A stretch of 40,104 nucleotides of DNA from NCBI GenBank assembly GCA_017396225.1, contig JAFQMP010000040.1, positions 1-40,104 on the forward strand. Reading direction: 5' to 3'. Position numbers and translations under genes: made by a program. Below the pieces are notes generated by a model that saw nothing but the letters and a program-made list of their open reading frames with translations, was not told where the DNA came from and ran no database searches. Within the stretch, counting starts at the first letter, position 1. Every line of letters starts with the position of its first letter. The DNA is from Clostridia bacterium (lineage in GTDB: Bacteria; Bacillota; Clostridia; Oscillospirales; CAG-272). Shown piece by piece: positions 3,215-39,799 of the stretch.

Positions 3215-3244
3215 ATTATAGCATAAGAGGAGGGGATTTGTCAA
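3215..3244 (-). promoter_or_regulatory. Promoter of rsmA
   Basis: On the minus strand a perfect TTGACA (complement of 3239-3244) and a perfect TATAAT (complement of 3215-3220) are 18 bp apart. A TG one base upstream of the -10 box gives an extended -10. The predicted leader is about 20-25 nt. Confidence 0.85.
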
Positions 3245-3282
3245 TGAAGGGTTTACATGATATCAAGTCGCAGGCAAGATAC

Positions 3283-3688
3283 ACGCTACGCGTGATGAGA
3301 TGCAAGGGCGGCGTTGCCACCCTTGATGATATACGCCGCACTTTGTGCGGCGATGATATACACGCTAACGCGTGATGATATGCCAAGCCTGCGGCTTGGA
3401 TAGAAAATAAAAAGCCACCCGATTGGGGAGCAAATCTTAAACACGAGAGATGTTCGCGCGTCTGCGCGAAAATTCGCACGCCCTGCGTCTGCTAAAAGCA
3501 TCACGCCGCAGGCGTGTATATCATTAATTCCGCGGGAATTGTATATCATCAACACGTAGTGTTGTATATCATCAAGCCGCAGGGGAATACACGCTAACGC
3601 GTGATGAGATATAGGGGCGGCGGCCGCCCCCCTGATGATATACGCCGCACTTTGTGCGGCGATGAGATACCAAGCCTGCGGCTTGGAT
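3283..3688. repeat. Tandem array of short hairpins joined by TGATGATATAC-like spacers
   Basis: At least eleven perfect or near-perfect inverted repeats occur in about 400 bp. They include CACGCTACGCGTG (3283), CGCCGCAC/GTGCGGCG (3334-3352 and again near 3642-3660), CACGCTAACGCGTG (3361 and 3590), CCAAGC/GCTTGG (3383 and 3670), CACGCC/GGCGTG (3502-3516), AATTCC/GGAATT (3526-3540) and CAACAC/GTGTTG (3550-3564). The spacers are variants of GATGATATA. Between 3509 and 3570 the spacer reads in the opposite orientation (TATATCATC), so three sub-arrays alternate in direction. The first and third sub-arrays carry the same hairpins in the same order. No long open frame is supported here. Such arrays resemble REP/BIME-type intergenic repeats. 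Confidence 0.85.
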
Positions 3689-3726
3689 AAAAAAACAACG
3701 GCTCCTGTAGGAGCCGTTGTTTTTTG
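3689..3726 (-). terminator. Displaced original terminator of tRNA-Val
   Basis: The stem AACAACGGCTCC / GGAGCCGTTGTT with loop TGTA is flanked by A and T runs and abuts the left attachment core. Before integration the tRNA-Val gene (minus strand) would have run straight into it, so it is most likely the original tRNA terminator, now 36 kb away from its gene. Confidence 0.75.
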
Positions 3727-3743
3727 GTGGAGACAGTTGGAAT
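3723..3743. other. attL: left attachment core
   Basis: This 21-bp sequence is identical to 39721-39741. It is the remnant of the original tRNA 3' end and contains the complement of the CCA terminus and part of the T arm. Identity stops at both edges (3722 T versus 39720 G; 3744 A versus 39742 C). Confidence 0.9.
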
Positions 3744-3751
3744 AGTGTTAG

Positions 3752-3849
3752 CAACAAAATATTGATAAAAAAGCAACCTTTTTACACTATATATTGTGGT
3801 TTTTGGGGAGTGTGGGTACATATTAGGTACAGAGGTGTGGTTTGGGTAC
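3752..3849. other. Candidate integrase arm-binding sites, left side
   Basis: Between attL and the end of int, (A/G)GGTAC occurs at 3814-3819, 3825-3830 (as TTAGGTAC) and 3844-3849. TTTAGGTAC is repeated near the other end (39574-39594), as expected for arm-type sites on both sides of an attP. CAACAAAATATTG at 3752-3764 is the inverted counterpart, with one mismatch, of 39632-39644. No gene lies in 3744-3861. Confidence 0.55.
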
Positions 3850-3861
3850 GGGAATCAGGTG

Positions 3862-4983
3862 TCAAAAAATGGTGGAGAGGGCCTTTCTGATGAGGTCTGT
3901 ATCGTCGGGCATAACGTGGGAATAGGTGTTGAGCGTCTGCTCAATATTGGTGTGGCCGAGCTGGCGGCTGACTGCTACGATAGATACTCCTTTCGATATC
4001 AGCAAGGATGCACAGGAGTGGCGCAGGTCGTGTATGCGTATTTCCTTGACGCCTGCTTTTTTGATGGCCGCTTTGAAGGTATGGTCTGTGGTGGACGTTG
4101 GCAGGGGACGGGTGCCGCCGAACACAAAAAGCTCAGGCGTCCAGGCATCTGCATATTCCTCCCTCTGCGCTTCCTTGTGTGCAAGCAGCTGTGTAAGGAG
4201 CATTGGTGGCACGGCGATTGTGCGGATACTGCCCTTGTTTTTCGGGGTGGTGACGGCATAGGTGCCGGACGTGGTTTTATTGGTGATGCTTTTGCTGATT
4301 TTGACGGTGGCGTTTTTCTTGCTTGATATCATGATATCATTCCACGTGATTGCCAGCCCCTCGCCGCGTCTGCATCCTGTGACGTACAAAAATGTGAAAT
4401 ACAGGTGATACACAGGGTTGGTGACGTGCTCGGCGAAGTGCTTAAATTCCTCGGGCGTCCACACCTGCATCTCCTTGGGCTGCTCGACGTTCCTTGGGCG
4501 GTCCACCTTGAGAATCGTATTGGTAACCTCAAAATATTTGACACCGTATTTATAGATGGAAGCGAGCGTACAGAAAATCCATTTTTTAGAGGAATAGCTG
4601 CGGTCAAGCCCCTCAATCCAGTCGGAGATGCTTTTGGCCGTGATTTCGCTCATTTTTTTGCCCGTGAAATAGGGCAACAGGGAATTGTTAATCTTGGCGC
4701 GGATATCGAGGTAAGAGGATTCCTTCACGCGTTTCTGCGTGAATTTCAGATAGTGCTCCAGCAGCTCGTCAAACAGCATGGAATCAGGAGAGGGCGTAGG
4801 GGCGGTGATGGCCGCCAGGGTGCGCTCACGCTCCTTGATATAATCCTCGTATCCGTATTGGGCTTCCTTTTTGGTTTTGAAGCCCGAGAGACGCTTATTG
4901 ATGGTGTTGCCGTCCTCGGCACAGGTTTCGCGGAAGCGGACAGACCACAAGCCGCTGCTTTTATTCTTTTCGTATGAGGGCAT
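3862..4983 (-). CDS. int: Tyrosine-family site-specific integrase
   Basis: The 373-residue recombinase catalyses phage integration and excision. Residues 1-60 form an arm-binding-type AP2-like N-terminus (GLWSVRFRE...), about 68-160 the SAM-like core-binding domain, and about 172-373 the catalytic domain. Catalytic residues are visible: R205 in TGCRRGE, a likely lysine near K250, H318 and R321 in HDLRH, H344 in LGH and the nucleophile Y354 in NTYSH. The gene ends 118 bp from the attL core and points towards it, the usual position. AAAGGAGCC precedes the ATG. It follows two membrane-protein genes on the same strand with a 14-bp gap and is probably cotranscribed with them. Confidence 0.95.
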   Translation of the reverse strand: MPSYEKNKSSGLWSVRFRETCAEDGNTINKRLSGFKTKKEAQYGYEDYIKERERTLAAITAPTPSPDSMLFDELLEHYLKFTQKRVKESSYLDIRAKINNSLLPYFTGKKMSEITAKSISDWIEGLDRSYSSKKWIFCTLASIYKYGVKYFEVTNTILKVDRPRNVEQPKEMQVWTPEEFKHFAEHVTNPVYHLYFTFLYVTGCRRGEGLAITWNDIMISSKKNATVKISKSITNKTTSGTYAVTTPKNKGSIRTIAVPPMLLTQLLAHKEAQREEYADAWTPELFVFGGTRPLPTSTTDHTFKAAIKKAGVKEIRIHDLRHSCASLLISKGVSIVAVSRQLGHTNIEQTLNTYSHVMPDDTDLIRKALSTIF

Positions 4984-4997
4984 AGTGGCTCCTTTCG

Positions 4998-5987
4998 TTA
5001 TTTGGGCGTGAGGCCCTTTACCTCTGCTTGGTCAATAATAATGGCGTCTACCTTTATGGCGAGCGCAATCATGTGTTTACAAGGCAACCGGCGCGTTTGA
5101 TAGTCCTTGCAGGTACAGGAAATCAGGGACGTTTGATACTCTTGATAAGATTTGTGGGAGATAACGGAGCACGTGACGCGGTATGGTGTGTGGTCCTTGT
5201 TTACCTTCAAATCTTTGAAAACAAGAGGCTCGGTGGTGGCACGCTTGGCGCGCTCCTTGTCGAGCGCAGAAGCAAATTGCGTTCGTTGGGTATCTGTAAA
5301 ATAATTCGGGTCGATATCCAAAAGCCAAGAGGGGGCTTGACTGCCGATTGGTGTGCTTGCTTTCGGCGAGAGTGCGGCGGATTTGCCGGAGGGCTGAGTC
5401 GGCGACTGTGACTGTGGAGAAACAGTAGGTTGTACCGCTGTCGGAGGGAAATGATTTTCGGAGCCGTGCGTGCGCGGCAAGGGCGGAGTTGCTTGCTTTG
5501 CAGTAGCGCTTTTGCCTTTGCCAGGCTCTTTCGGCAGAGAGGGGGGAGTGGTTGGCTTGGACTTTGCTGTGATTGGTGCCGAGGGAGCTTTGTGTGCTTC
5601 TTCGGCTTTTGTTGGGGGTGGTGTCAGAGGTTTTTGTTCGTTTTGCGGTGGTGCAAATGCTTCCTTTATCTTTTCAACAAGTGGTGAAATGATAAAAGCC
5701 CAAAGCAAAAACAGGCAAAACGGCCCGCCTACAATAGCCAGCGCTATCCAATCGGAGTTGTTACTTGATTTAGACTTGTTTGATGAACCCTCTTTGTTGC
5801 TGCCGGATGAGGAACCGGAACTGCTTGAATGATTAGAGTTAGGGGTGCCGTGATAATGATATTCTCCCGTGGAGTGGTCCCAATGACCGCCATACTGGTC
5901 TGTTCTTCCGGAGTGGGCAAGTATGGGGAGAATTAAAAGAGATAATAACAGGACGATGGTGAAAAGAATAAAGATTTTGCGCTTCAT
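4998..5987 (-). CDS. YHYH-motif membrane protein with a C-terminal SWIM zinc finger
   Basis: A 329-residue protein with an unusual make-up. Residues 1-25 are a strongly hydrophobic signal or anchor. Residues 26-49 carry the metal-binding-like YHYH pattern (HSGRTDQYGGH followed by TGEYHYHG). A Ser/Asn-rich stretch follows (52-77), then a membrane helix at about 79-103 and a long Pro/Ala/Lys-rich linker (about 110-225). Near the end is a SWIM-type zinc finger, CxCx9CxH, with C291, C293, C303 and H305. YHYH domains are usually outside the cell, SWIM domains are usually cytoplasmic nucleic-acid or protein binders, so the protein would link both faces of the membrane. Its place between int and a small membrane protein in the lysogeny block suggests expression in the lysogen, perhaps for exclusion or surface sensing; this is inference. 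No known homologue is recalled with this combination. Confidence 0.8.
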   Translation of the reverse strand: MKRKIFILFTIVLLLSLLILPILAHSGRTDQYGGHWDHSTGEYHYHGTPNSNHSSSSGSSSGSNKEGSSNKSKSSNNSDWIALAIVGGPFCLFLLWAFIISPLVEKIKEAFAPPQNEQKPLTPPPTKAEEAHKAPSAPITAKSKPTTPPSLPKEPGKGKSATAKQATPPLPRTHGSENHFPPTAVQPTVSPQSQSPTQPSGKSAALSPKASTPIGSQAPSWLLDIDPNYFTDTQRTQFASALDKERAKRATTEPLVFKDLKVNKDHTPYRVTCSVISHKSYQEYQTSLISCTCKDYQTRRLPCKHMIALAIKVDAIIIDQAEVKGLTPK

Positions 5988-5997
5988 AAATCTCGGT

Positions 5998-6324
5998 TTA
6001 GTTGTTTCGATTCAATAGGTCGGGCAGAGTGAAAAATGTGAAAAGAAACATAAAGATGTAATATACAATCGTATAGATAATACCAATCAGTGCTGCAGGA
6101 ATTATGCCGAGGAGAGGTATGGAGCCCACAAGCTTGCCCACGATGGTGATAGCTGTGAGGACAATGAACTCTGCCAAGGATACCGCTAAAAAGGGAATGG
6201 TGAAAAGCACTAAGTAAATGGTTTTGAGAACTAAATAGCCGTTGGATAAAGAGTGGATGCCAAAGAAGTATTTCATGCGACCTACAAAGGCGCCTGTCAA
6301 GGAATAGCCATCGGTGTTTGTCAT
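5998..6324 (-). CDS. Small membrane protein of the lysogeny block
   Basis: The 108-residue product has a hydrophilic N-terminus of about 28 residues and two long hydrophobic stretches (about 30-64 and 67-100) that probably form three to four membrane helices with a hairpin at G68-P70. The start at 6324 is chosen for the AAAGGAA site 7 bases upstream; in-frame ATGs at 6381 and 6444 have poor sites and would run into the divergent ImmA promoter region. It lies upstream of the YHYH gene with a 10-bp gap and was probably transcribed with it and int. No family is recognised. Prophage membrane proteins in this position are often superinfection-exclusion factors, but nothing in the sequence proves this. 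Confidence 0.7.
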   Translation of the reverse strand: MTNTDGYSLTGAFVGRMKYFFGIHSLSNGYLVLKTIYLVLFTIPFLAVSLAEFIVLTAITIVGKLVGSIPLLGIIPAALIGIIYTIVYYIFMFLFTFFTLPDLLNRNN

Positions 6325-6423: not shown

Positions 6424-6996
6424 ATGGATTACAAGGTATATCAAAAATCAAGAGATTTTGCGTGGAAAATTTTACTGCGAGAGGGTGTGCGTGAGCTGCC
6501 CGTCGATGTTGTGGCGCTCTGTCGTAAGCTCGGTGTGCGCGTGGTGTGGTATGACGGCGCCCGTGAGGGTGTTGGCGACGGCTTCAGCGTGATGATTAAC
6601 GGCAAGCCGCGAATCTGCATCGAGAGAGGGAAACCTGTGGGACGCACGCGCTTTACGATTGCCCACGAGCTGGGGCACGTGCTGCTCGGTCACGTGGGCC
6701 AATATCATTTGGTGAACCGTGAGCCGTCCTCGGCAGATAATGCGGTGGAGCAGGCAGCTAACACCTTTGCGGCGCGGCTGCTTGCCCCTGCGTGTGTACT
6801 ATGGGGATGTGGCGTGCGTTCTGCCGCTGAAATTGCCACGCTATGCGGCGTGAGCGACGTGGCGGCAGGGTACAGGTGGGCGCGTATGCAAATTCTCCTT
6901 GAGCGCGGAAAATTCTGCACGAGCCCTATTGAGCGTCTGGTGTATCACAAGTTTTCTGAATTCATACTTAATTATCGGCGTCGCCAAGGTCGGTGA
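6424..6996 (+). CDS. ImmA/IrrE-type HEXXH metalloprotease
   Basis: The 190-residue protein carries the zinc metalloprotease motif HELGH at 81-85, followed by VLLGH and a downstream glutamate-rich helix (VEQAANTFAARLL), the pattern of the ImmA/IrrE (DUF955) family. In ICEBs1 of Bacillus subtilis ImmA cleaves the XRE repressor ImmR and derepresses the element. Here the XRE repressor gene is the immediate convergent neighbour, overlapping by 29 bp, so this is the likely anti-repressor protease acting on it. ATG 6424 follows a strong GGAGGTGAT. There is no S24 domain in the phage repressor, which agrees with induction by a separate protease rather than autocleavage. Confidence 0.9.
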   Translation: MDYKVYQKSRDFAWKILLREGVRELPVDVVALCRKLGVRVVWYDGAREGVGDGFSVMINGKPRICIERGKPVGRTRFTIAHELGHVLLGHVGQYHLVNREPSSADNAVEQAANTFAARLLAPACVLWGCGVRSAAEIATLCGVSDVAAGYRWARMQILLERGKFCTSPIERLVYHKFSEFILNYRRRQGR

Positions 6997-7432
6997 CGTC
7001 GGGCAGGGCCAAGAGAGCCTGCAGTTGGCTGTCCGTGATGGTGATTTCTTTGACACCGCCGCCACGGGCGGCTATTTTTATTTGGTGGGTGTGCTCGGTG
7101 GCGGTTCCGTATTTGTCTGCGGCAAGCAAGCCCGTCACAAAGGCGTCCACCTTGATGCGGTCTGTGGCATCGAGGGCTGTGATTTTCGCCCATAGCTCGT
7201 CTTCCTCGCGCTCTACAATGGGGCCGAGGGGGATTTTTTTATCCTCCTTGCCGAGTAGGTAGTCTACGGTGACGTCAAAATATTTTGCAAATTTGAAAAG
7301 CGTTGCCTGGCGCGGAACTGTCTTCTCGTTCCAGCAGGAGTAAGCGGCGTTTGAGAGGCCGTTGTCGGTACACGCTTTGGTGGGCGCGATGCCGCGCTCG
7401 TTACATAATTCAGTAAAAATTTTTTTGAACAT
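6968..7432 (-). CDS. XRE-family phage repressor
   Basis: The 154-residue protein has an N-terminal helix-turn-helix (about residues 1-62, ending in the family-typical TVDYLLGKED). The remainder (about 70-154) is a helical region with no S24 peptidase motifs. It sits divergently from the rightward early operon with an operator-rich gap between, the standard place of the lysogeny repressor. The start MFKKIF at 7432 is chosen for GGAGG at 7437-7441. Its 3' end overlaps the ImmA-like gene, the presumed protease that removes it. No autoproteolysis site is visible, so induction probably depends on that protease. Confidence 0.9.
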   Translation of the reverse strand: MFKKIFTELCNERGIAPTKACTDNGLSNAAYSCWNEKTVPRQATLFKFAKYFDVTVDYLLGKEDKKIPLGPIVEREEDELWAKITALDATDRIKVDAFVTGLLAADKYGTATEHTHQIKIAARGGGVKEITITDSQLQALLALPDVTDLGDADN

Positions 7433-7450
7433 TTTTCCTCCAAATTGCAC

Positions 7451-7612: not shown

Positions 7613-7816
7613 TTGAGTGTTGCAGAAAATGTACGTGCGCGCCGTGAGGCAAGGGGCCTGACACAGCAGGCGCTGGCGGATTTGTTATCCGTGGGGCGCT
7701 CCTACGTGGCGCAGATTGAGCGCGGCAGCAAGGTGCCCAGTATGTATATGGGTAAGGCGATTGCCGAGGCGCTTGGGTGCTCGGTAGAGGATTTATTGAA
7801 GGAAAGGGAGGTTTGA
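7613..7816 (+). CDS. Cro-like XRE DNA-binding protein, first gene of the early operon
   Basis: The 67-residue protein is a single XRE helix-turn-helix domain: ARGLTQQALADLL is the first helix pair and VGRSYVAQIERG the recognition helix region. It lacks any effector domain, as Cro-type repressors do. It starts with TTG at 7613, supported by AAGGAGGG seven bases upstream and by the absence of a suitable ATG. First gene behind PR, hence the likely antagonist of the lysogeny repressor. Confidence 0.85.
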   Translation: MSVAENVRARREARGLTQQALADLLSVGRSYVAQIERGSKVPSMYMGKAIAEALGCSVEDLLKEREV

Positions 7817-31292: not shown

Positions 31293-34200
31293 ATGGCATA
31301 TAAGCTGACGGCGGCGGACCGCCGCAGACAGGCGGCGCTGATGCGCGCGCAGAGCACCAAGCGATATACACCGAAAAAGGTGTTGAATCCCCCGAAGGCG
31401 AAAGCCGAAGAAAAGCCCGGCACGCTGGCGCGTGTCGGGGCTACGGCGGGGGATATGGCCGCCAACGTCCTGACGGGCCTTGGCAAGGGCATTGAGGGCA
31501 TTTGGGATTTTTCTGTGGGCCTCAGGAGCAGTCTTGTTAGTGTTTTCAGCGAAAAGTTTCGCGACAAAGTACAGGACCTTATTGCAAAGGATTTTACGGG
31601 CGATTGGTATGGCGACGCCCTGCAGGAGGCAACGCACAATTCCTATCTGAACGGCAACAAGGCGGGTCAGATTACAGAGGGCATCGCGCAGGGCGTGGGA
31701 CAAATCTTGCCTGCGGTGGCAATATCGTATATAACGGGCGGTGCTGCTGCGCCTTCGCAGATGGCGGCACTTGCCACGACAATGACGAGTGCGGCAGGTA
31801 CCGCTACCGAGGAGGCCTTTCAGGATGGTGCCGGTTACGGCGAGGGTATGGCGTACGGTGCCGTTTCGGGCGCTATTGAGGGTGCCACAGAGAAGCTGAC
31901 GGGCGGCCTTGGCGGTCTGTACGGTAAGGGCCTTGTCAAGACGGGTAAGGCGGCCCTTAAGGAGGGCGCGGAGCAGGTTGCCAAGACGGGCTTGAAGCGC
32001 GTGCTTTCCGAGGCCGCAGGCGAGGGCGTTGAGGAAATGATTTCCGAGCTTGCCGCACCTGCAACCAAGACCATTTACAAGGGCCGTGATGCGCTTGCCG
32101 AGTACGGCGACGCCGACTACTGGAAGGGCGTTGGCGAGGCAGGTATCATCGGTGCGGGTACCTCGATTGCCTACGGCGGTTCTGTCGGTCGTATCACCAA
32201 AACCTCGGGTGTCTATGCAGATGCGCGCTCGGTGATGGAGGATATTGACGCGCAGACCAAGGCACTTGCCGACCTTGAGAGCAAGGGCAAGTTGACCACC
32301 GAGCGAGAAACGGCTGCCGCTAAGCGCATCAAGGCGGATTATGAGAAGCTTTCTGAGGTTTTGCAGCGTGCCAATCCCAAGGCGCGTGAGCGCATTTTGG
32401 CAAATCCTGTGTTTTCCGCCGCATTTGAGAGCGACGGCGCTTTGCGTGCATCGGTTGTGACCAATCTTGACGCGCGTGTGCAGTATGTCGAGCAGGGCAG
32501 CGGTGGTGAAATGCTTTCGCGTGGCTTGTGGGGCAACGAGCAGGCGGTGAACGAGCAGCTTGCCGCCAACGGCACCCGTATCTATGAGGGAGAACTGACC
32601 GAGGCGGAAACCGAAAATCTTAGTCGATTGCGAAAAGCGCACACGGCGCTCTCTCGCAAGGGCTTGATTGGCACCGAGTTTGTGATTGCCGAGGAGTCCT
32701 CAAGTTTCAGCGCCTATCTTGACGACAAAACCGTGGTGATTGGCAAGGACACCCTGACCGACGGTACATATTTAAGAAAGCTGGTGCATGAGGTAGAGCA
32801 TTTTACCGAGGGCACCAAGGAGTGGACTGAGCTTGCGGCGTTTGTCTTTGAAAAAACAAACACAGACGCGGCAGTGGCGGCTGTGTTGCAATCGGGCTAT
32901 GGCGTCACGCAGGCTGACGTGGATACCTTGCTTGAAAATTTCAAAAGCGGCAAGCTGACCAAGGGACAGCGCACGTTGATTTCCGAGGTGGTGGCAAGCC
33001 AAAGTGAGGCGCTGTTTGGCGACGAGCAGACGATTGCACGCCTGACACGCACCAATCGCTCCCTTGCCGAGAAAATTCTTGACCGCATCAAGGCGTTTCT
33101 TGAGGTATTTACCGCGAAAACCCCCGAGGAAAAGGCAGAGGTACGACGTATGCAACGCGCCAAGCAGCTCTTTGAGCAGGCGCTTGGCAAGGCGGGTACC
33201 AAGTATGCGGTGCGTGAGATGCAAAGCGCCGAAAAAGGCGATGTCGTACTTGACGGAGAGAGTGTGGTAGGGTATAATAATACTGTACCGCAATTTTCCA
33301 CCAAACGGGCGAAATACATATCCTATGATAAGCTTGGTGCAAGCAACGTGGCTTTCATCAGAAGGCAGCTTTATAAGCTTTATCAAGGTGTAGAAAACGG
33401 TATTGCAAACAGTGTGGCAATCGAAAATGGGAACACTGTTTATATTGTCGATTCGGGTTGCGAAAACGGCGATATTTCGTTTGGGGTTAGGGAAAGAAGA
33501 ATTGTTACTGATGCTCAATTAAGGGCTGAAATCATAAGGAGAAGAAACAATGAGTCACTATCAAAAGGGTATATTAGTGATGGATTATCTTCAAGGTTTG
33601 GGGATAGACATGACAACGGTATTGATAGCAGTGTGCGACGAGAATCTGGAGCAGAGTTATCAGCTGATACAGCAGAATCCGCAGATATCCAAGAAGGAGT
33701 TTCTGCAGGCGATGCAGATAGAGGAAGAAGCGGAGTAACGCAGTATTCCCGCGAACAGCAAAGCACCCCCACCGAAAGCGGTGAGGGCGCGGTAGGGTAT
33801 AATGATACTGTACCGCAATTTTCCACCAAACGGGCAAATCAAGACCTCTATACCGCTACAAAGGACTTTGTGCGGGAGGTAGCATTTGCGGACCGTCACG
33901 ACTTTACTCGCTGGCTTTCGTATAAGACTACGGGTATGAGAAAAAACGAAATCAGGAATATCACGATTTATTGTAGTGAGAGGGTTTATTTTTTTAAAGC
34001 CGATGGATATATGCACGGCAAAATGTATCGGTCGCGTTCCGTTAAACATAAAAATGTTATAATAGAAATAAGAAAGGCGTGGGATAATGAAAACAACCAA
34101 AATGTTGATACTATTGATTCGCTGGCTGATGCTTTTGCCATTGAGCGAGGAAGAACAGATTTCGATAGCGACATTACTGGATACGGACCGGGAACGAGTG

Positions 34201-37200
34201 GCTTTGATGGATTTTCTTTCGAGTCATCGTCAAGCGACACACGACGAGATAATGGCGGAAGTGGCACGGATTATAGAATCGACTACGACGAGGTAGACCG
34301 TATTATCAAGGCTCTGCGCGAGATGGTTGCCAAAACGGACGAGGAACCACACAGGCAATTTTCTCGTAAGTTTTTGGGTTCACGAGATGTTGCCTACACC
34401 GAAGCGCAGTACCGCGACTTTGGCTGGGTGCGCGATAATGACGTGATACCGAACGGTGCGTGGCAGGACTTTACAAGTAAGTTTGCCGCTGCCCTTTCGG
34501 GGCGCGTGCATCCACCGATTACCAAAGGCGGAGAATATATGATTGCGGTGAGTGACATTGACGACCCGCAAGCAGAAGGCGTGAACAATATCATTGTATA
34601 CGCCACAGGTACAATAGAAAGCCCCAAGGTTTCAAGGGTGCTGACGATTGACCTTGATAATGAAACTGAACTCGACAGAAAAAGGAGAGAAATTTATGAA
34701 GGTGAGTGGCGAGGAATACAGCCAGCGTTTGAGGACATATTCCGATTCTACTATTCGTCTGATTTTGAGTTTCACAGACCGAGAGCGAGCCGTACGGGCA
34801 TCGGAGATAGTGAGCGAAACGGACAGCGAGGAAGAAGTGGTAAGACTTCTGACCGAATTAAAGAATTCAAAGTAAACGAGGACGGTAGCTTTACCACCGT
34901 TTACGCCGATGGCAGAACCGAGGTGCAATACTCTCGTAAAATTGTGGGCTCGCACGACGCCGCCTACACCGAAGCGCAGTACCGCGACTTTGGCTGGGTG
35001 CGCGATAATGACGTGATACCGAGCGGTGCGTGGGAGAACTTTACAAGCAAATTTGCCGCCGCCCTTTCGGGGCGCGAGCATCCGCCGAAAACCAAAGGCG
35101 GAGAATATATGATTGCGGTGAGCGACATAGACGACCCGCAAGCAGAAGGCGTGAACAATATCATTGTATACGCCACGGGTACAATGGAAAGCCCCAAGGT
35201 TTCAAGGGTGCTGATGATTGACCTTGATAATGAAACAAGTCTTGATGAACAAAGGAGAGATATTTATGCGCTTGAAGGGCGAGGCATACAGCAGACGTCT
35301 GGAGGGTTATTCCATCTCTACGCTGCAACTGATAGCAGATATCAAAGGTATGGACAGGGAAACCGTGCTCAAAGCGGCGGACATTACGACCAACTCGGAG
35401 CTGACCGAGGCAGAGGTAGTAAGACTTCTGACCGAATTAAAGAATTCAAAGTAAACGAGGACGGTAGCTTTACCACCGTTTACGCCGATGGCAGAACCGA
35501 GGTGCAATACTCCCGCAAGCCCACGGGTGCCGCCATCAAGGCAGATGCTGACGTGGAGCGCTTGCGCGTTTACACCAAAAAGGATGCCGAGGCGATTATT
35601 GCCGACGTGGTTGGGCAGTATATGGTGTTTGAGAGCGAGGGCGTTTACGGGCAGCTGGTTGGCAAATCTCAACGCGAGGCGATTGAGGCGCTTTGGCGTG
35701 GTCTGAACAGTGCCGAGCCCGGTATGCAGGGCGGTGTTGCCTTGGATATTGCCGAGTACATCATAAACAACGCCACCGTGGCAAGTGTGTGGGAGCAGGA
35801 CACCACGGAGCAAACCGAAGAAGCCAAGCGCCGCCTTGCGATTCTGCGCGGTCTGATGCACAAGCTTGACCTTTCCTCTATCAAGGACGAGATCGCCCAT
35901 AAGCTTGACGACAAGAAGGGCACGGCGTACCTTGTATGGGGTGCAAGAAAGGGTCAGCAGGGCCTCTCGCTTGACGGCATTGCCGCCGAACTGGTGGAGC
36001 AGGGCTTGCCGATTACGGCGGAGCATCCTGCCGATATTTTCTTTGAGATTATGGACTTGCACCGCAAGGCGGTAGATGCCTTGCAGGGTGAGGCCGCAAG
36101 CTATCTTGCCGAGGTGATGACGGCAGAGGAGCGCCACGCCCTCAAGCAGGATATTGCCAAGGAAATTCTGCGCGCTTTTGACACCAAGGGAGCGCCCTCA
36201 AAGCTGGCACGCACCATTGTCTTTTACGAGGACCAACTGAGCCGTCTGCGTGCCGAGCTGAAGGACGCGCGAAATGCAAACGGCGTAATAAACCGTGTGC
36301 TTGACAAGGCACAGCGCCTGCGTGACCTCAAGGCAGGGCGCTATCTGACCGCGGCGCAGTACCGTGAGGATATTTTCAGGGGCTCGATTGGCAGGCTTGC
36401 CGCTATTAAATACCGTGGCAATCTGCGCGAGGCCTCGGTGCGCGGTATCGTGTCGGAGCTTGCCTCGTGGTATCATACCGATAACCCGCTTTATAAGGGC
36501 GAGGACGCCTTGAAATTAAACGGCGAAATCCTTGAAATGATGAAGGAAATCTCGGGTGGAGAGGGGCGCTTGACCAACGCCGAGCTTGACATGCTTGGCA
36601 AGGTGATGGACTTTTTTGTGCACGAGGTGGAGAACTTTAACAAGGTTTACCGAGAGGGCAAATGGCAGGAGGCAAGGCCGATTGCAAAAAAACATGTGGA
36701 CGGCTTGCATACCGCCAAGCGCCGCCACCGTGGCGGCGTGCTGACGCGTATTGCGGAATCCGGGTATATGCGTATGTTTGCAGACCCGCTTTCCCTGATG
36801 CGCCGCGCCGATGCCTACGAGCAGGGATTTTTTACCGAGAGCTTTGAAAACCTCAGAAAGGGTGCTATCAAGGCGGCTGTCACCAAGCAACGCCTACTCC
36901 AGCAATATGAGGGCTTTTTCAAAAAGCACAAGGGCTACGACAAGCGCTATTTTGGTGAGTGTATCACTTATCGCGGTCAGCTGATTGCCGTGAATGATGC
37001 GATTTCACTCTATATGACGATGCACCGCGAGCAGGCTTACGCAGGCCTTGCACGTGCGGGCTATCAGATTGACGTGGTGACAGACTACAAGGCAAGAACC
37101 TCCAAAAAGGCGGCAGAGCGCGCAGAGGGCTTTGCCACACCGACTGAGCCCCTCAGTCAGGAAAGCCTGAAAAAGCTGATGGAAACGGAGCGTGCGAAGC

Positions 37201-39482
37201 TTAAAAAGCAGTTTACCGCAGACGACCTCAAGATGATTGAGATGATGGAGGATATCTTCCGTCAATGTGCGGAGCTCAAAAAAGTAACAGACCTCACCAA
37301 GCAGGGCTACACCAACCTCACGGGCGGTTATTACTATCCTATCAAGCGCGCACAAACGGCAGACAAGGTTGACCGTCCGCTGGACGAGCTCAGCCGCGTG
37401 ACGGGGCTTTCCTTTAACAAGGATACCGTGCAGGGTGCCAAGGGTGAGCTTCGTATTGAGGCCGCCGACGTGGTGCTGAAGCGCCATATTGACGGTATTG
37501 CCATTTATGCCGGGCTTGCCATTGAAACCGACAATATCAACAGATTGCTGAACCTCAATATTGCAGAGGACAAGCATAAGCCCGTTTCTATCAAATCCGA
37601 GATTGGTGTATCTACCGATTTTGTGCGCGAGATGTGGCGCTTTTTCAAGAAGCTGCAGGCAGACGTAGAGGGCGCTTCCGCAAAGCCGCAGGACCAGCGC
37701 GCATACGACAAGTGGGTGCGCTTTATCCGTGGCGGCTACGCGAAATATCAGCTTGGTGCGAATCCCAAGGTGTGGTTTACGCAGCTGTCCTCGCTTGTTG
37801 CCGCTACAAACCTGCTTGACACCACCTCTATTGTAAGGGGGCTTGGCGTCAGCGGTAAGGACGTAGACAGTTACTGCGAGCTGGCGTGGCTCCGAAACGT
37901 GGACGACCACGCCGCCAAGGCGGAAACCGTGCTTGACAACGTGGGCAAGGTTGGTGATTTCCTGATGAAGCCAATCGGCACCTTTGACCGTATGGTTGTG
38001 GTAAGGTTGTTTGCCGCCTGTCAGGTTGAGGTGGAAAGAAAGCAGGGGTTGACGCTTGGCACCGTGGAGAACAAGCGAGCGGCGGGTGAGCTTTTGGAGA
38101 GGGTTATCCTTGACACACAGCAAAACTCCCTTGCCACCGAGCGCTCGGTGGCGATGCGCTCGCCAGACGAGTTTCTCAAAGGCTTTACAATGTTCTCGGC
38201 AGATGCGATGAAGGGATTTGGCCGCTTTATTGATGCCATTAGCGAGGTGGCAGTTCTGCGTGAGGAATTGAAGCGCACGCATGACCCCAAGCGCCGTGCC
38301 GCACTTGAAGAGCGCCTGAAGGCCGCCAAGACACAGGCACGCAAATCAACCTCGGCACTTGTCGGCACTGCGCTTTTCGGCGCGCTTGTGGCACTTGGCT
38401 TTAAGTGGCTTTACAACAAGGACGACGAGGAAACGCTTTGGAGCTTCCTTGCCGATGCTTTTGGCAATATGCTGGGCGGTCTGCCTCTTGTGCGTGATGT
38501 ATACAGTTTTTTCCAAGATGGCTTTGAGATGGACCATTTTCTGATTGCCACCGGTAATACTGTCTTGAAGGCAGTGTCTGATACCGTGGGGCTTGTCACC
38601 GACTCTATGAACGGCAAAAAGGTAGAACGCCGCGACGTATTGAGCGCTGCGAGAAAGGTGCTCTATGCGGCCGGTCAGCTTGCAGGTATTCCTACAAGAA
38701 ATATCTATAACGTGGCGTATGGCTTGACCAAGCGCACGAGCGAGCCGCTTGCTTACGCGTGGGATAGTAATTTCACCAAGAAAAGCTATTCCGTCGACCT
38801 TGAAAAGGCGCTTGCCGCAGGTGACGACAAGATGGTGGCGACCATTGCCGGCTTGATGATTGATGAGAAAATCGGCATTGAGGACGACAAAACGCGCTCT
38901 GTACTGAAGGGACTTGCGGAGCAGGGGCTTTCCGTTCTGCCGCGCGCGGTGGGGGACACCGTGACGCTGAATGGCGAGGAGCGCAATCTCACGGGCAAGC
39001 AGCAAAAGCGGTTCCGTACCGTCTACGGCGTGGCCGAGGAGGCTGTGGCCGACCTTGTGTGTCTGAAGCGCTTTGGTGAGGCGGATGCCCCTGTACAGGC
39101 TAAGGCGGTGCAGTTTATCTACGATGTTTATTGGAATTTGGCACTTGAGGACGTGCTTGGTGAGGACCTTGCCGAGAAGAATGTGCTCTTTGCCGAGGCG
39201 ATTGACATCGAGAAGCTTGCCAACATTATTGCGATGGCGCGCTCGATTGAGGCGGACAAGGACAAAAACGGCAAGGCGATTGCCGGCACCAAAAAGCGCA
39301 AGGTGGAGCAGCTTGTGAGCTCGCTGCACCTGACCGCCGCGCAAAAGTACATGGTGATGGGCTACCTTGGGTACACCAACGCCAACGGCCGCGAGCAGGT
39401 GGAGCGCTTCATCGGCGGCCTGAAGCTCACCAAGGGCGAGAAAAAGGCGCTGCTGAAATATAGTGGTTATGAGGCTGCGTGA
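31293..39482 (+). CDS. 2729-residue polyvalent protein with metalloprotease motif and effector cassettes
   Basis: This one frame of 2729 codons is the last phage gene. The layout, in order: a basic N-terminus; an Ala/Gly-rich segment (about 45-300) with repeated glycine motifs; a region with the zinc metalloprotease signature HEVEH at 499-503; effector cassettes from about 665 to 1405, separated by Q-F/Y-S-(T/R)-K-type motifs at 667, 817, 842, 1022, 1212 and 1405; a helical segment (about 1410-2130); and a C-terminal part (about 2140-2729) with a membrane helix at about 2353-2376. The C-terminus resembles LPD38, one of the domains of large polyvalent proteins that phages eject with DNA. GGGG at 31284-31287 precedes the ATG. 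Small genes at 33550, 34087, 34696 and 35266 lie inside it in a different frame. Ejection and effector roles are inferred from the family. Confidence 0.85.
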   Translation: MAYKLTAADRRRQAALMRAQSTKRYTPKKVLNPPKAKAEEKPGTLARVGATAGDMAANVLTGLGKGIEGIWDFSVGLRSSLVSVFSEKFRDKVQDLIAKDFTGDWYGDALQEATHNSYLNGNKAGQITEGIAQGVGQILPAVAISYITGGAAAPSQMAALATTMTSAAGTATEEAFQDGAGYGEGMAYGAVSGAIEGATEKLTGGLGGLYGKGLVKTGKAALKEGAEQVAKTGLKRVLSEAAGEGVEEMISELAAPATKTIYKGRDALAEYGDADYWKGVGEAGIIGAGTSIAYGGSVGRITKTSGVYADARSVMEDIDAQTKALADLESKGKLTTERETAAAKRIKADYEKLSEVLQRANPKARERILANPVFSAAFESDGALRASVVTNLDARVQYVEQGSGGEMLSRGLWGNEQAVNEQLAANGTRIYEGELTEAETENLSRLRKAHTALSRKGLIGTEFVIAEESSSFSAYLDDKTVVIGKDTLTDGTYLRKLVHEVEHFTEGTKEWTELAAFVFEKTNTDAAVAAVLQSGYGVTQADVDTLLENFKSGKLTKGQRTLISEVVASQSEALFGDEQTIARLTRTNRSLAEKILDRIKAFLEVFTAKTPEEKAEVRRMQRAKQLFEQALGKAGTKYAVREMQSAEKGDVVLDGESVVGYNNTVPQFSTKRAKYISYDKLGASNVAFIRRQLYKLYQGVENGIANSVAIENGNTVYIVDSGCENGDISFGVRERRIVTDAQLRAEIIRRRNNESLSKGYISDGLSSRFGDRHDNGIDSSVRRESGAELSADTAESADIQEGVSAGDADRGRSGVTQYSREQQSTPTESGEGAVGYNDTVPQFSTKRANQDLYTATKDFVREVAFADRHDFTRWLSYKTTGMRKNEIRNITIYCSERVYFFKADGYMHGKMYRSRSVKHKNVIIEIRKAWDNENNQNVDTIDSLADAFAIERGRTDFDSDITGYGPGTSGFDGFSFESSSSDTRRDNGGSGTDYRIDYDEVDRIIKALREMVAKTDEEPHRQFSRKFLGSRDVAYTEAQYRDFGWVRDNDVIPNGAWQDFTSKFAAALSGRVHPPITKGGEYMIAVSDIDDPQAEGVNNIIVYATGTIESPKVSRVLTIDLDNETELDRKRREIYEGEWRGIQPAFEDIFRFYYSSDFEFHRPRASRTGIGDSERNGQRGRSGKTSDRIKEFKVNEDGSFTTVYADGRTEVQYSRKIVGSHDAAYTEAQYRDFGWVRDNDVIPSGAWENFTSKFAAALSGREHPPKTKGGEYMIAVSDIDDPQAEGVNNIIVYATGTMESPKVSRVLMIDLDNETSLDEQRRDIYALEGRGIQQTSGGLFHLYAATDSRYQRYGQGNRAQSGGHYDQLGADRGRGSKTSDRIKEFKVNEDGSFTTVYADGRTEVQYSRKPTGAAIKADADVERLRVYTKKDAEAIIADVVGQYMVFESEGVYGQLVGKSQREAIEALWRGLNSAEPGMQGGVALDIAEYIINNATVASVWEQDTTEQTEEAKRRLAILRGLMHKLDLSSIKDEIAHKLDDKKGTAYLVWGARKGQQGLSLDGIAAELVEQGLPITAEHPADIFFEIMDLHRKAVDALQGEAASYLAEVMTAEERHALKQDIAKEILRAFDTKGAPSKLARTIVFYEDQLSRLRAELKDARNANGVINRVLDKAQRLRDLKAGRYLTAAQYREDIFRGSIGRLAAIKYRGNLREASVRGIVSELASWYHTDNPLYKGEDALKLNGEILEMMKEISGGEGRLTNAELDMLGKVMDFFVHEVENFNKVYREGKWQEARPIAKKHVDGLHTAKRRHRGGVLTRIAESGYMRMFADPLSLMRRADAYEQGFFTESFENLRKGAIKAAVTKQRLLQQYEGFFKKHKGYDKRYFGECITYRGQLIAVNDAISLYMTMHREQAYAGLARAGYQIDVVTDYKARTSKKAAERAEGFATPTEPLSQESLKKLMETERAKLKKQFTADDLKMIEMMEDIFRQCAELKKVTDLTKQGYTNLTGGYYYPIKRAQTADKVDRPLDELSRVTGLSFNKDTVQGAKGELRIEAADVVLKRHIDGIAIYAGLAIETDNINRLLNLNIAEDKHKPVSIKSEIGVSTDFVREMWRFFKKLQADVEGASAKPQDQRAYDKWVRFIRGGYAKYQLGANPKVWFTQLSSLVAATNLLDTTSIVRGLGVSGKDVDSYCELAWLRNVDDHAAKAETVLDNVGKVGDFLMKPIGTFDRMVVVRLFAACQVEVERKQGLTLGTVENKRAAGELLERVILDTQQNSLATERSVAMRSPDEFLKGFTMFSADAMKGFGRFIDAISEVAVLREELKRTHDPKRRAALEERLKAAKTQARKSTSALVGTALFGALVALGFKWLYNKDDEETLWSFLADAFGNMLGGLPLVRDVYSFFQDGFEMDHFLIATGNTVLKAVSDTVGLVTDSMNGKKVERRDVLSAARKVLYAAGQLAGIPTRNIYNVAYGLTKRTSEPLAYAWDSNFTKKSYSVDLEKALAAGDDKMVATIAGLMIDEKIGIEDDKTRSVLKGLAEQGLSVLPRAVGDTVTLNGEERNLTGKQQKRFRTVYGVAEEAVADLVCLKRFGEADAPVQAKAVQFIYDVYWNLALEDVLGEDLAEKNVLFAEAIDIEKLANIIAMARSIEADKDKNGKAIAGTKKRKVEQLVSSLHLTAAQKYMVMGYLGYTNANGREQVERFIGGLKLTKGEKKALLKYSGYEAA
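33250..33278 (+). promoter_or_regulatory. Consensus-like promoter inside the polyvalent gene
   Basis: TTGACG at 33250-33255 and TATAAT at 33273-33278 are exactly 17 bp apart. It lies within coding sequence, just before cassette A, about 270 bp upstream of the first nested gene. It could supply the nested genes in the lysogen when the late promoter is off. The repeated 45-bp element containing this -10 recurs at 33791-33835 but without a -35 there. Confidence 0.55.
33266..33835 (+). repeat. 45-bp direct repeat flanking cassette A
   Basis: 33266-33310 and 33791-33835 are 45 bp long with one mismatch. They encode VGYN(N/D)TVPQFSTKRA and bracket the first effector cassette and its nested gene. 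Such a repeat would allow cassette loss or exchange by homologous recombination. Confidence 0.85.
33550..33738 (+). CDS. Nested small gene A within the polyvalent gene (+1 frame)
   Basis: A 62-residue frame wholly inside the large gene. AAGGAG at 33536-33541 lies eight bases before the ATG, a better site than that of many ordinary genes here. The product is helical and acidic at its end (MSHYQKGILVMDYL start, FLQAMQIEEEAE end). The overlapping part of the large frame is low-complexity (Asp, Ser, Gly, Arg), as expected if the small frame is the constrained one. The sequence recalls small helical proteins (pattern: helix, NPxATxxE, helix) found with large phage or ICE proteins in Clostridia. 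Product, if made, could be an immunity protein, antitoxin or regulator for cassette A. Needs translation evidence. Confidence 0.65.
   Translation: MSHYQKGILVMDYLQGLGIDMTTVLIAVCDENLEQSYQLIQQNPQISKKEFLQAMQIEEEAE
34055..34063 (+). promoter_or_regulatory. Extended -10 promoter before nested gene B
   Basis: TGTTATAAT gives a perfect -10 with TG one base upstream. There is no good -35, which extended -10 promoters do not need. The nested start at 34087 is 23 bases beyond. Confidence 0.5.
34087..34296 (+). CDS. Nested small gene B within the polyvalent gene (+1 frame)
   Basis: A 69-residue frame with a modest AAAGG site at 34073-34077, nine bases before the ATG, and an extended -10 just upstream. 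Its core, LSEEEQISIATLLDTDRERV then FLSSHRQATHDEIM, has the helical pattern of small proteins that I recall from clostridial phages and mobile elements. The main frame here is low-complexity again (rich in Asp, Ser, Gly). It aligns by eye with nested genes C and D around TDRER. Function unknown; supposed partner of cassette B. Confidence 0.55.
   Translation: MKTTKMLILLIRWLMLLPLSEEEQISIATLLDTDRERVALMDFLSSHRQATHDEIMAEVARIIESTTTR
34696..34875 (+). CDS. Nested small gene C within the polyvalent gene (+1 frame)
   Basis: A 59-residue frame with AAAGGAG at 34681-34687, eight bases before the ATG at 34696. An earlier in-frame ATG at 34648 lacks a site. The product begins MKVSGEEYSQRL and ends VVRLLTELKNSK, an all-helical small protein. 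Its paralogue D keeps GE, YS, RL, YS, ST, LI, DRE and the last twelve residues, although the DNA between has diverged. By eye alignment, this frame is better conserved between the copies than the main frame. This is the strongest case for real translation among the four. Confidence 0.72.
   Translation: MKVSGEEYSQRLRTYSDSTIRLILSFTDRERAVRASEIVSETDSEEEVVRLLTELKNSK
35266..35454 (+). CDS. Nested small gene D within the polyvalent gene (+1 frame)
   Basis: A 62-residue frame with AAAGGAG at 35251-35257, eight bases before the ATG at 35266. Same relative frame and position in the cassette as gene C, and 41% identical to it by hand alignment (about 21 of 51 in the divergent stretch, then 12 of 12). 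It begins MRLKGEAYSRRL and ends VVRLLTELKNSK. Its conservation with gene C in a region where the main frame shares only about a dozen of 50 residues supports dual coding. Function unknown; candidate partner of cassette D. Confidence 0.72.
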   Translation: MRLKGEAYSRRLEGYSISTLQLIADIKGMDRETVLKAADITTNSELTEAEVVRLLTELKNSK

Positions 39483-39720: not shown

Positions 39721-39741
39721 TTTGGTGGAGACAGTTGGAAT
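39721..39741. other. attR: right attachment core
   Basis: A 21-bp sequence identical to attL, spanning the T-arm and acceptor 3' strand of tRNA-Val on the minus strand. The tRNA gene is kept whole by the phage copy. Confidence 0.92.
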
Positions 39742-39799
39742 CGAACCAACGACCCCATGCATGTCAAGCATGTACTCTAACCATCTGAGCTATGCCTCC
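39723..39799 (-). tRNA. tRNA-Val (anticodon GAC)
   Basis: A 77-nt tRNA on the minus strand with CCA encoded. The acceptor GGAGGCA pairs with TGTCTCC (one G-U). The D-arm starts at GCTC; the anticodon stem CATGC/GCATG holds loop TTGACAT with GAC; the T-stem is GTTGG/CCAAC with TTCGATT. The discriminator is A. Its 3' end is the phage attachment site. Confidence 0.97.

Follow-up and report, generated by a model that had tools for sequence, protein, structure and literature searches.

Which function might be assigned to a prophage protein that joins a YHYH domain, predicted to be exported, through a membrane helix to a SWIM zinc finger is the question raised by the window, that is, the whole stretch of 40,104 nucleotides analysed here. 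The preliminary description of this DNA had placed the gene at 4998-5987; frame, strand and ends proved right, the gene being an ATG-started frame of 329 residues on the minus strand. The following features were assigned to the protein.

4998 to 5987, minus strand: YHYH-TM-SWIM membrane protein, 329 residues (open reading frame with ATG start, domain profiles, relative in L003)
5916 to 5987, minus strand: signal peptide, residues 1-24, predicted cleavage ILA/HSGRTD (hydropathy; A/H junction shared by 45 of 51 phage YHYH proteins)
5850 to 5915, minus strand: YHYH_alt domain, residues 25-46, predicted extracellular (NF033223 profile at residues 24-46; genome search, 5850-5918)
5679 to 5747, minus strand: transmembrane (TM) helix, about residues 81-103 (hydropathy)
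5340 to 5678, minus strand: Pro/Lys-rich linker, probably disordered, about residues 104-216 (composition; pLDDT below 50 in a weak full-length model)
5001 to 5339, minus strand: C-terminal domain of about 110 residues holding the SWIM finger (AlphaFold2, 55-sequence alignment)
5073 to 5117, minus strand: CxCx9CxH zinc-ligand motif, C291, C293, C303 and H305 (sequence, Pfam SWIM, invariant alignment columns)

The N-terminal YHYH-type domain was recognised by the NCBIfam profile NF033223 (YHYH_alt; 41.1 bits against a cut-off of 30), while the Pfam YHYH profile PF14240 stayed below its cut-off (15.4 bits against 25). The membrane helix was apparent from a mean hydropathy of 2.42 across residues 81-99, with a low-confidence full-length model placing a helix at residues 77-110, and the linker that follows it, described earlier as Pro/Lys-rich, is 22% Pro and 10% Lys. 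The C-terminal finger matched Pfam SWIM (PF04434) at residues 285-313 with 30.8 bits against a cut-off of 19.6, showed the exact ligand spacing (C291-x-C293-x9-C303-x-H305), and was the sole SWIM match in the host genome. Judged from hydropathy, the YHYH domain would lie outside and the SWIM domain inside, whether the signal is cleaved or retained. The domain anatomy of the protein is well supported; its function is what we infer below.

The setting of the gene was analysed through the following features of the prophage.

3723 to 3743, either strand: att repeat, 21 bp, integrase side (exact match to 39721-39741)
3862 to 4983, minus strand: tyrosine integrase (Pfam Phage_integrase 76.8 bits, PHROG integrase)
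5998 to 6324, minus strand: small multi-TM protein of about 106-108 residues, upstream partner (L003 counterpart, hydropathy)
6424 to 6996, plus strand: M78 (ImmA/IrrE-like) metalloprotease gene (PF06114, 53.7 bits)
6968 to 7450, minus strand: HTH (cI-like) repressor (open reading frame; L003 relative at E 3.4e-14)
7613 to 7816, plus strand: possible cro-like HTH gene (open reading frame)
39721 to 39741, either strand: att repeat, 21 bp, tRNA-Val side (overlaps the 3' end of tRNA-Val, 39723-39799, minus strand, ARAGORN)

Since the two 21-bp repeats match exactly and one overlaps the 3' end of tRNA-Val, the prophage of this gut bacterium, which carries a P22-like portal, was taken as 3723-39741 (36 kb). 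The gene does sit in the lysogeny block, between the integrase and the M78/HTH genes, in the order int - (YHYH/SWIM + small TM) - M78 - HTH - HTH.

A relative with 49% identity over its full length and an identical domain order was found in a Clostridia MAG of the same genus from roe-deer caecum (L002/L003). Only two full-length copies were found, 2 of 98 relatives, and the description of the combination as uncommon is supported. A tblastn search of phage and plasmid collections with the full-length protein matched nothing, and scans of viral contigs with the full protein, the two-sequence alignment or the small TM protein as queries gave no relatives. In L003, a 56% identical partner gene precedes the YHYH-SWIM gene as it does in the window; among 245 genomes of the order, no match to this partner was found beyond L003. 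The position of M78 relative to the pair differs between the two prophages, M78 lying between the YHYH-SWIM gene and int in L003. That the pair stays together while M78 shifts suggests that the small TM protein and the YHYH-SWIM protein form one unit.

The differing placement of M78 also bears on the possibility that the protein acts in the lysogeny switch, sensing an outside signal at the membrane and relaying it to the M78 protease and the repressor so as to tune induction. M78 and HTH genes lie close by in L003, L015, L051, L083 and L183 as they do in the window, and an exported domain coupled to a cytoplasmic finger has the look of a sensor. However, the small-TM/SWIM pair holds in L003 irrespective of where M78 lies, and many TM-SWIM loci have no M78 match, and we consider a role in the switch unlikely.

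YHYH proteins were then surveyed in their own right. The exported HxGRTDxxGGH...YHYH stretch at the mature N-terminus is common to the window protein and YHYH proteins at large (NF033223; PF14240), and a motif scan yielded 51 phage YHYH frames, 20 of them, as a raw count, with an HTH or recombinase gene within 1 kb. Independently of SWIM, YHYH proteins therefore come up repeatedly in lysogeny modules. A predicted signal-peptidase Ala stood directly before the first conserved His in 45 of the 51 (L190-L250; 5913-5915 in the window), so the mature protein would start with His, and an N-terminal-His metal site is possible from these sequences. Five loci (L197, L200, L213, L216, L236) encode YHYH-TM proteins with a different C-terminal cytoplasmic Cys/His finger, and the L228 protein has a RecD2/YrrC-type OB fold on its cytoplasmic side. 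The order HTH - M78 - YHYH - int was seen in L197 and L199 (M78 of L197 and int of L199, left end, partly read by eye). A link to the Ltp family, considered by eye for the GY-rich repeats of the YHYH proteins of L196 and L209 and also for a lipoprotein beside the L197 YHYH gene, was unsupported by profile and PDB sequence searches.

YHYH domains are predicted to bind Zn and are possibly hydrolytic, and those of jumbo phages are tail-associated (PMC7824862), while the YHYH domain of the window is joined via a TM helix to a cytoplasmic finger. Together with the secreted YHYH proteins that carry other fusions in bacterial genomes, the predicted Zn binding would suit an envelope protein of lysogenic conversion, benefiting the host through metal handling or surface remodelling and unrelated to other phages. 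Such a role, however, leaves unexplained both the conserved cytoplasmic SWIM domain and the repeated placement between repressor and recombinase, and appears improbable to us.

The SWIM-containing end of the protein proved to be larger than the finger. Fifty-five sequences align across about 110 residues reaching upstream of it, and an AlphaFold2 model from this alignment predicted one folded domain (pLDDT 93, pTM 0.85); the full-length model, from a two-sequence alignment, was a weak prediction (pLDDT 44). While the CxCxnCxH finger above the Pfam cut-off is shared with PF04434 proteins, the window protein differs from them in being membrane-anchored and in holding its finger within this extended domain. 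Foldseek and VIA-align with the C-terminal domain gave no standout solved structure and no standout OB-fold match, and the best rows of a fold search against viral models included two SWIM-type proteins, with weak E-values. In a SWIM tree, whose deep branches were poorly resolved, the nearest rows to the window protein were those of L003, L015 and L101. The L015 protein has two TM helices and two SWIM fingers and adjoins M78, and that of L101 (2693-4804, 703 residues) combines an N-terminal TM helix, a coiled coil, a SWIM finger slightly below the Pfam cut-off and an Mrr restriction endonuclease. The L101 gene was also seen to lie in a lysogeny region, with a tyrosine integrase resembling that of L003. 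Further fusions joined SWIM to a DnaQ-like exonuclease (L165), to BRCT (L123) and to TM2. As a separate observation, a second C-terminal finger, Hx4C...CxxC, occurs in the SWIM proteins of L118 (2942-3937), L069, L097, L126, L135 and L158; in L118 it follows a TM helix and would be extracellular, a mirror image of the window layout.

The preliminary description had stated that SWIM fingers usually occur in cytoplasmic enzymes, which is true in general, but membrane-anchored SWIM proteins turned out to be recurrent among phages. An IMG/VR search with the C-terminal alignment returned many phage SWIM proteins bearing TM helices, and a motif scan gave at least 119 SWIM frames, of which at least 26 have a strong TM helix, against one match for a control SWIM DNA pattern one base out of frame. 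Among the matches listed, a same-strand recombinase lay at most 1 kb downstream in 11 of 22 TM-SWIM clusters against 16 of 81 clusters without TM (Fisher P 0.007, near-copies removed at 80%). In single-linkage clusters at 50%, the same difference gave P 0.27 among the matches listed, and the test was redone at 80% because the 50% clusters mixed TM and non-TM proteins. When compared with other TM genes of the same loci, 10 of 20 TM-SWIM genes against 3 of 184 were followed on their own strand by a recombinase no more than 1 kb away (among the matches listed, near-copies retained). For all SWIM genes the association was 27/92 versus 34/1525 among the matches listed, which makes it general to SWIM genes and an added effect of the TM helix less sure; in all of these counts, the recombinase and HTH queries were partly drawn from SWIM loci and contigs are cut. 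Several TM-SWIM genes sit directly between repressor and recombinase, and non-TM SWIM genes are placed likewise in chromosomal prophages of the order (L181, L183, L184). Half of the TM-SWIM genes among the matches listed had no detected downstream recombinase, for example those of L014 and L021-L025, which are opposed to structural genes. A family of two-TM SWIM genes (L014, L021, L022, L025, L029, L182) was also observed to lie moron-like, in opposite orientation, amid structural genes.

That SWIM genes, with or without a membrane anchor, so strongly tend to adjoin serine and tyrosine recombinases could be taken to mean that the protein helps the neighbouring recombinase in integration or excision, its SWIM domain binding att DNA. 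An export signal and a TM helix would make little sense in such a helper, the recombinase types vary, M78 intervenes between the gene and int in L003, and membrane-SWIM genes also occur away from recombinases (L014, L021); this explanation is therefore quite improbable. That two unrelated genes were joined by chance or by an annotation error, as the separate occurrence of YHYH and SWIM in other phages might suggest, can be dismissed, because in L003, a second prophage, the relative keeps the domain order in a single, unsplit, ATG-started frame at 49% identity. Neither of the two refutations that the preliminary description had named applies, since the C-terminus resembles SWIM by profile and is predicted to fold as one domain, and the relative shows an intact frame.

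Searches of the open-licence literature found neither membrane SWIM proteins nor YHYH-TM-SWIM proteins described, and known systems were considered for comparison. In lambda, RexA and RexB, encoded next to the repressor, form a comparable pair expressed in the lysogen: RexA, which binds nucleic acid, is soluble, unlike the membrane-anchored window protein, and RexB is a small polytopic membrane protein. In the TP-J34 module, int - ltp - metalloproteinase - cI - cro, the exclusion gene ltp is transcribed from the prophage (PMC3952083), and the window gene occupies the same slot, between int and the metalloproteinase/cI genes (PMC3952083 Table 3). Both proteins have an exported part at the outer face; however, Ltp is a lipoprotein with no cytoplasmic domain, whereas the window protein has a large cytoplasmic part and no lipobox cysteine after its signal peptide (which ends ILPILA/HSG), and M78 is on the opposite strand in the window, unlike the TP-J34 metalloproteinase. 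The phage-resistance proteins PdpSau, of S. aureus prophages, and AbiP, of Lactococcus, combine an N-terminal membrane helix with a cytoplasmic domain of nucleic-acid-binding type, and with the prophage-encoded PdpSau, DNA enters, replication halts and infection is aborted (PMC10127798). From hydropathy and the model, a membrane helix and a C-terminal domain, probably cytoplasmic, are also found in the window protein, and PdpSau/AbiP are its closest tested precedent. Their domain is an OB fold instead of SWIM, they have no exported YHYH domain, and pdpSau belongs to the lysis module while the window gene is in the lysogeny block. The YHYH-TM-OB protein of L228 is nearer to PdpSau/AbiP than is the window protein, resembling them with an exported domain added.

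A role in superinfection exclusion or abortive infection is the reading we favour, although we place it slightly short of an even chance. On this reading, the lysogen would express the prophage-encoded transmembrane protein from the lysogeny block, and its small YHYH domain, rich in His and Asp and probably metal-binding, would be exposed at the outer membrane face. A single helix would span the membrane, and the flexible Pro/Lys-rich tether would hold the folded SWIM domain of about 110 residues in the cytoplasm, where, at the inner face, it may engage DNA or protein of an infecting phage and block establishment, either directly or via a membrane disturbance through the small multi-TM partner. 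The earlier suggestion that the protein could sense the outside and bind DNA or another phage's product inside fits the anatomy and the parallel architectures as a possible mode of action. Exclusion or abortive infection is supported by the ltp-like slot, by the recurrence next to recombinases, by the SWIM fusions (Mrr, DnaQ-like exonuclease, BRCT) and parallel YHYH-TM architectures, by the PdpSau/AbiP precedent and by the conserved partner gene in L003. Against it, occupants of the same slot include regulators and proteins of unknown function besides exclusion genes, half of the TM-SWIM genes among the matches listed have no recombinase detected downstream, the deeper branches of the SWIM tree are poorly supported, and SWIM domains can bind protein instead of DNA. 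Nor is there a confident match to a known defence family: the PADLOC 2023 defence models gave the window protein no significant full-length match, the rows returned (SWIM_XIII, E 0.0029; PDC-S62, E 0.022) being weak and centred on the finger. No paper was found on a SWIM link of retron type XIII.

Many temperate phages that are not related to one another carry similar proteins in this position, which suggests a previously undescribed prophage guard against newcomer phages. Within a class of prophage transmembrane proteins built in mix-and-match fashion, the window protein represents one combination; members of the class would pair an exported module of metal-binding type with a cytoplasmic module of nucleic-acid type. 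Extended to the temperate phages of gut Clostridia and their relatives, this would amount to a combinatorial guard family in the repressor-integrase gap, with an exported metal-binding module (YHYH or Cys/His finger), a helix and interchangeable cytoplasmic modules (SWIM, Cys/His finger, OB fold, sometimes a nuclease), coupling events at the outer face to the capture of incoming phage DNA or protein; we regard so broad a proposal as conceivable but rather doubtful. If true, it would define a widespread, unnamed prophage gene set recognisable by architecture and position, supply, for anaerobic gut bacteria, a family of superinfection-exclusion or abortive-infection proteins that can be tested, and give a function to exported YHYH and membrane-tethered SWIM domains, both of which are without one in this setting.

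Two further observations were made in the window. The structural region closes with a single frame of 2729 residues (31293-39482), for which Pfam gives no informative match. At 3216-3757, near-identical peptides (e.g. ISSRVSVY) recur in overlapping minus-strand frames, which suggests that a short array of intergenic repeats lies at the edge of the prophage.
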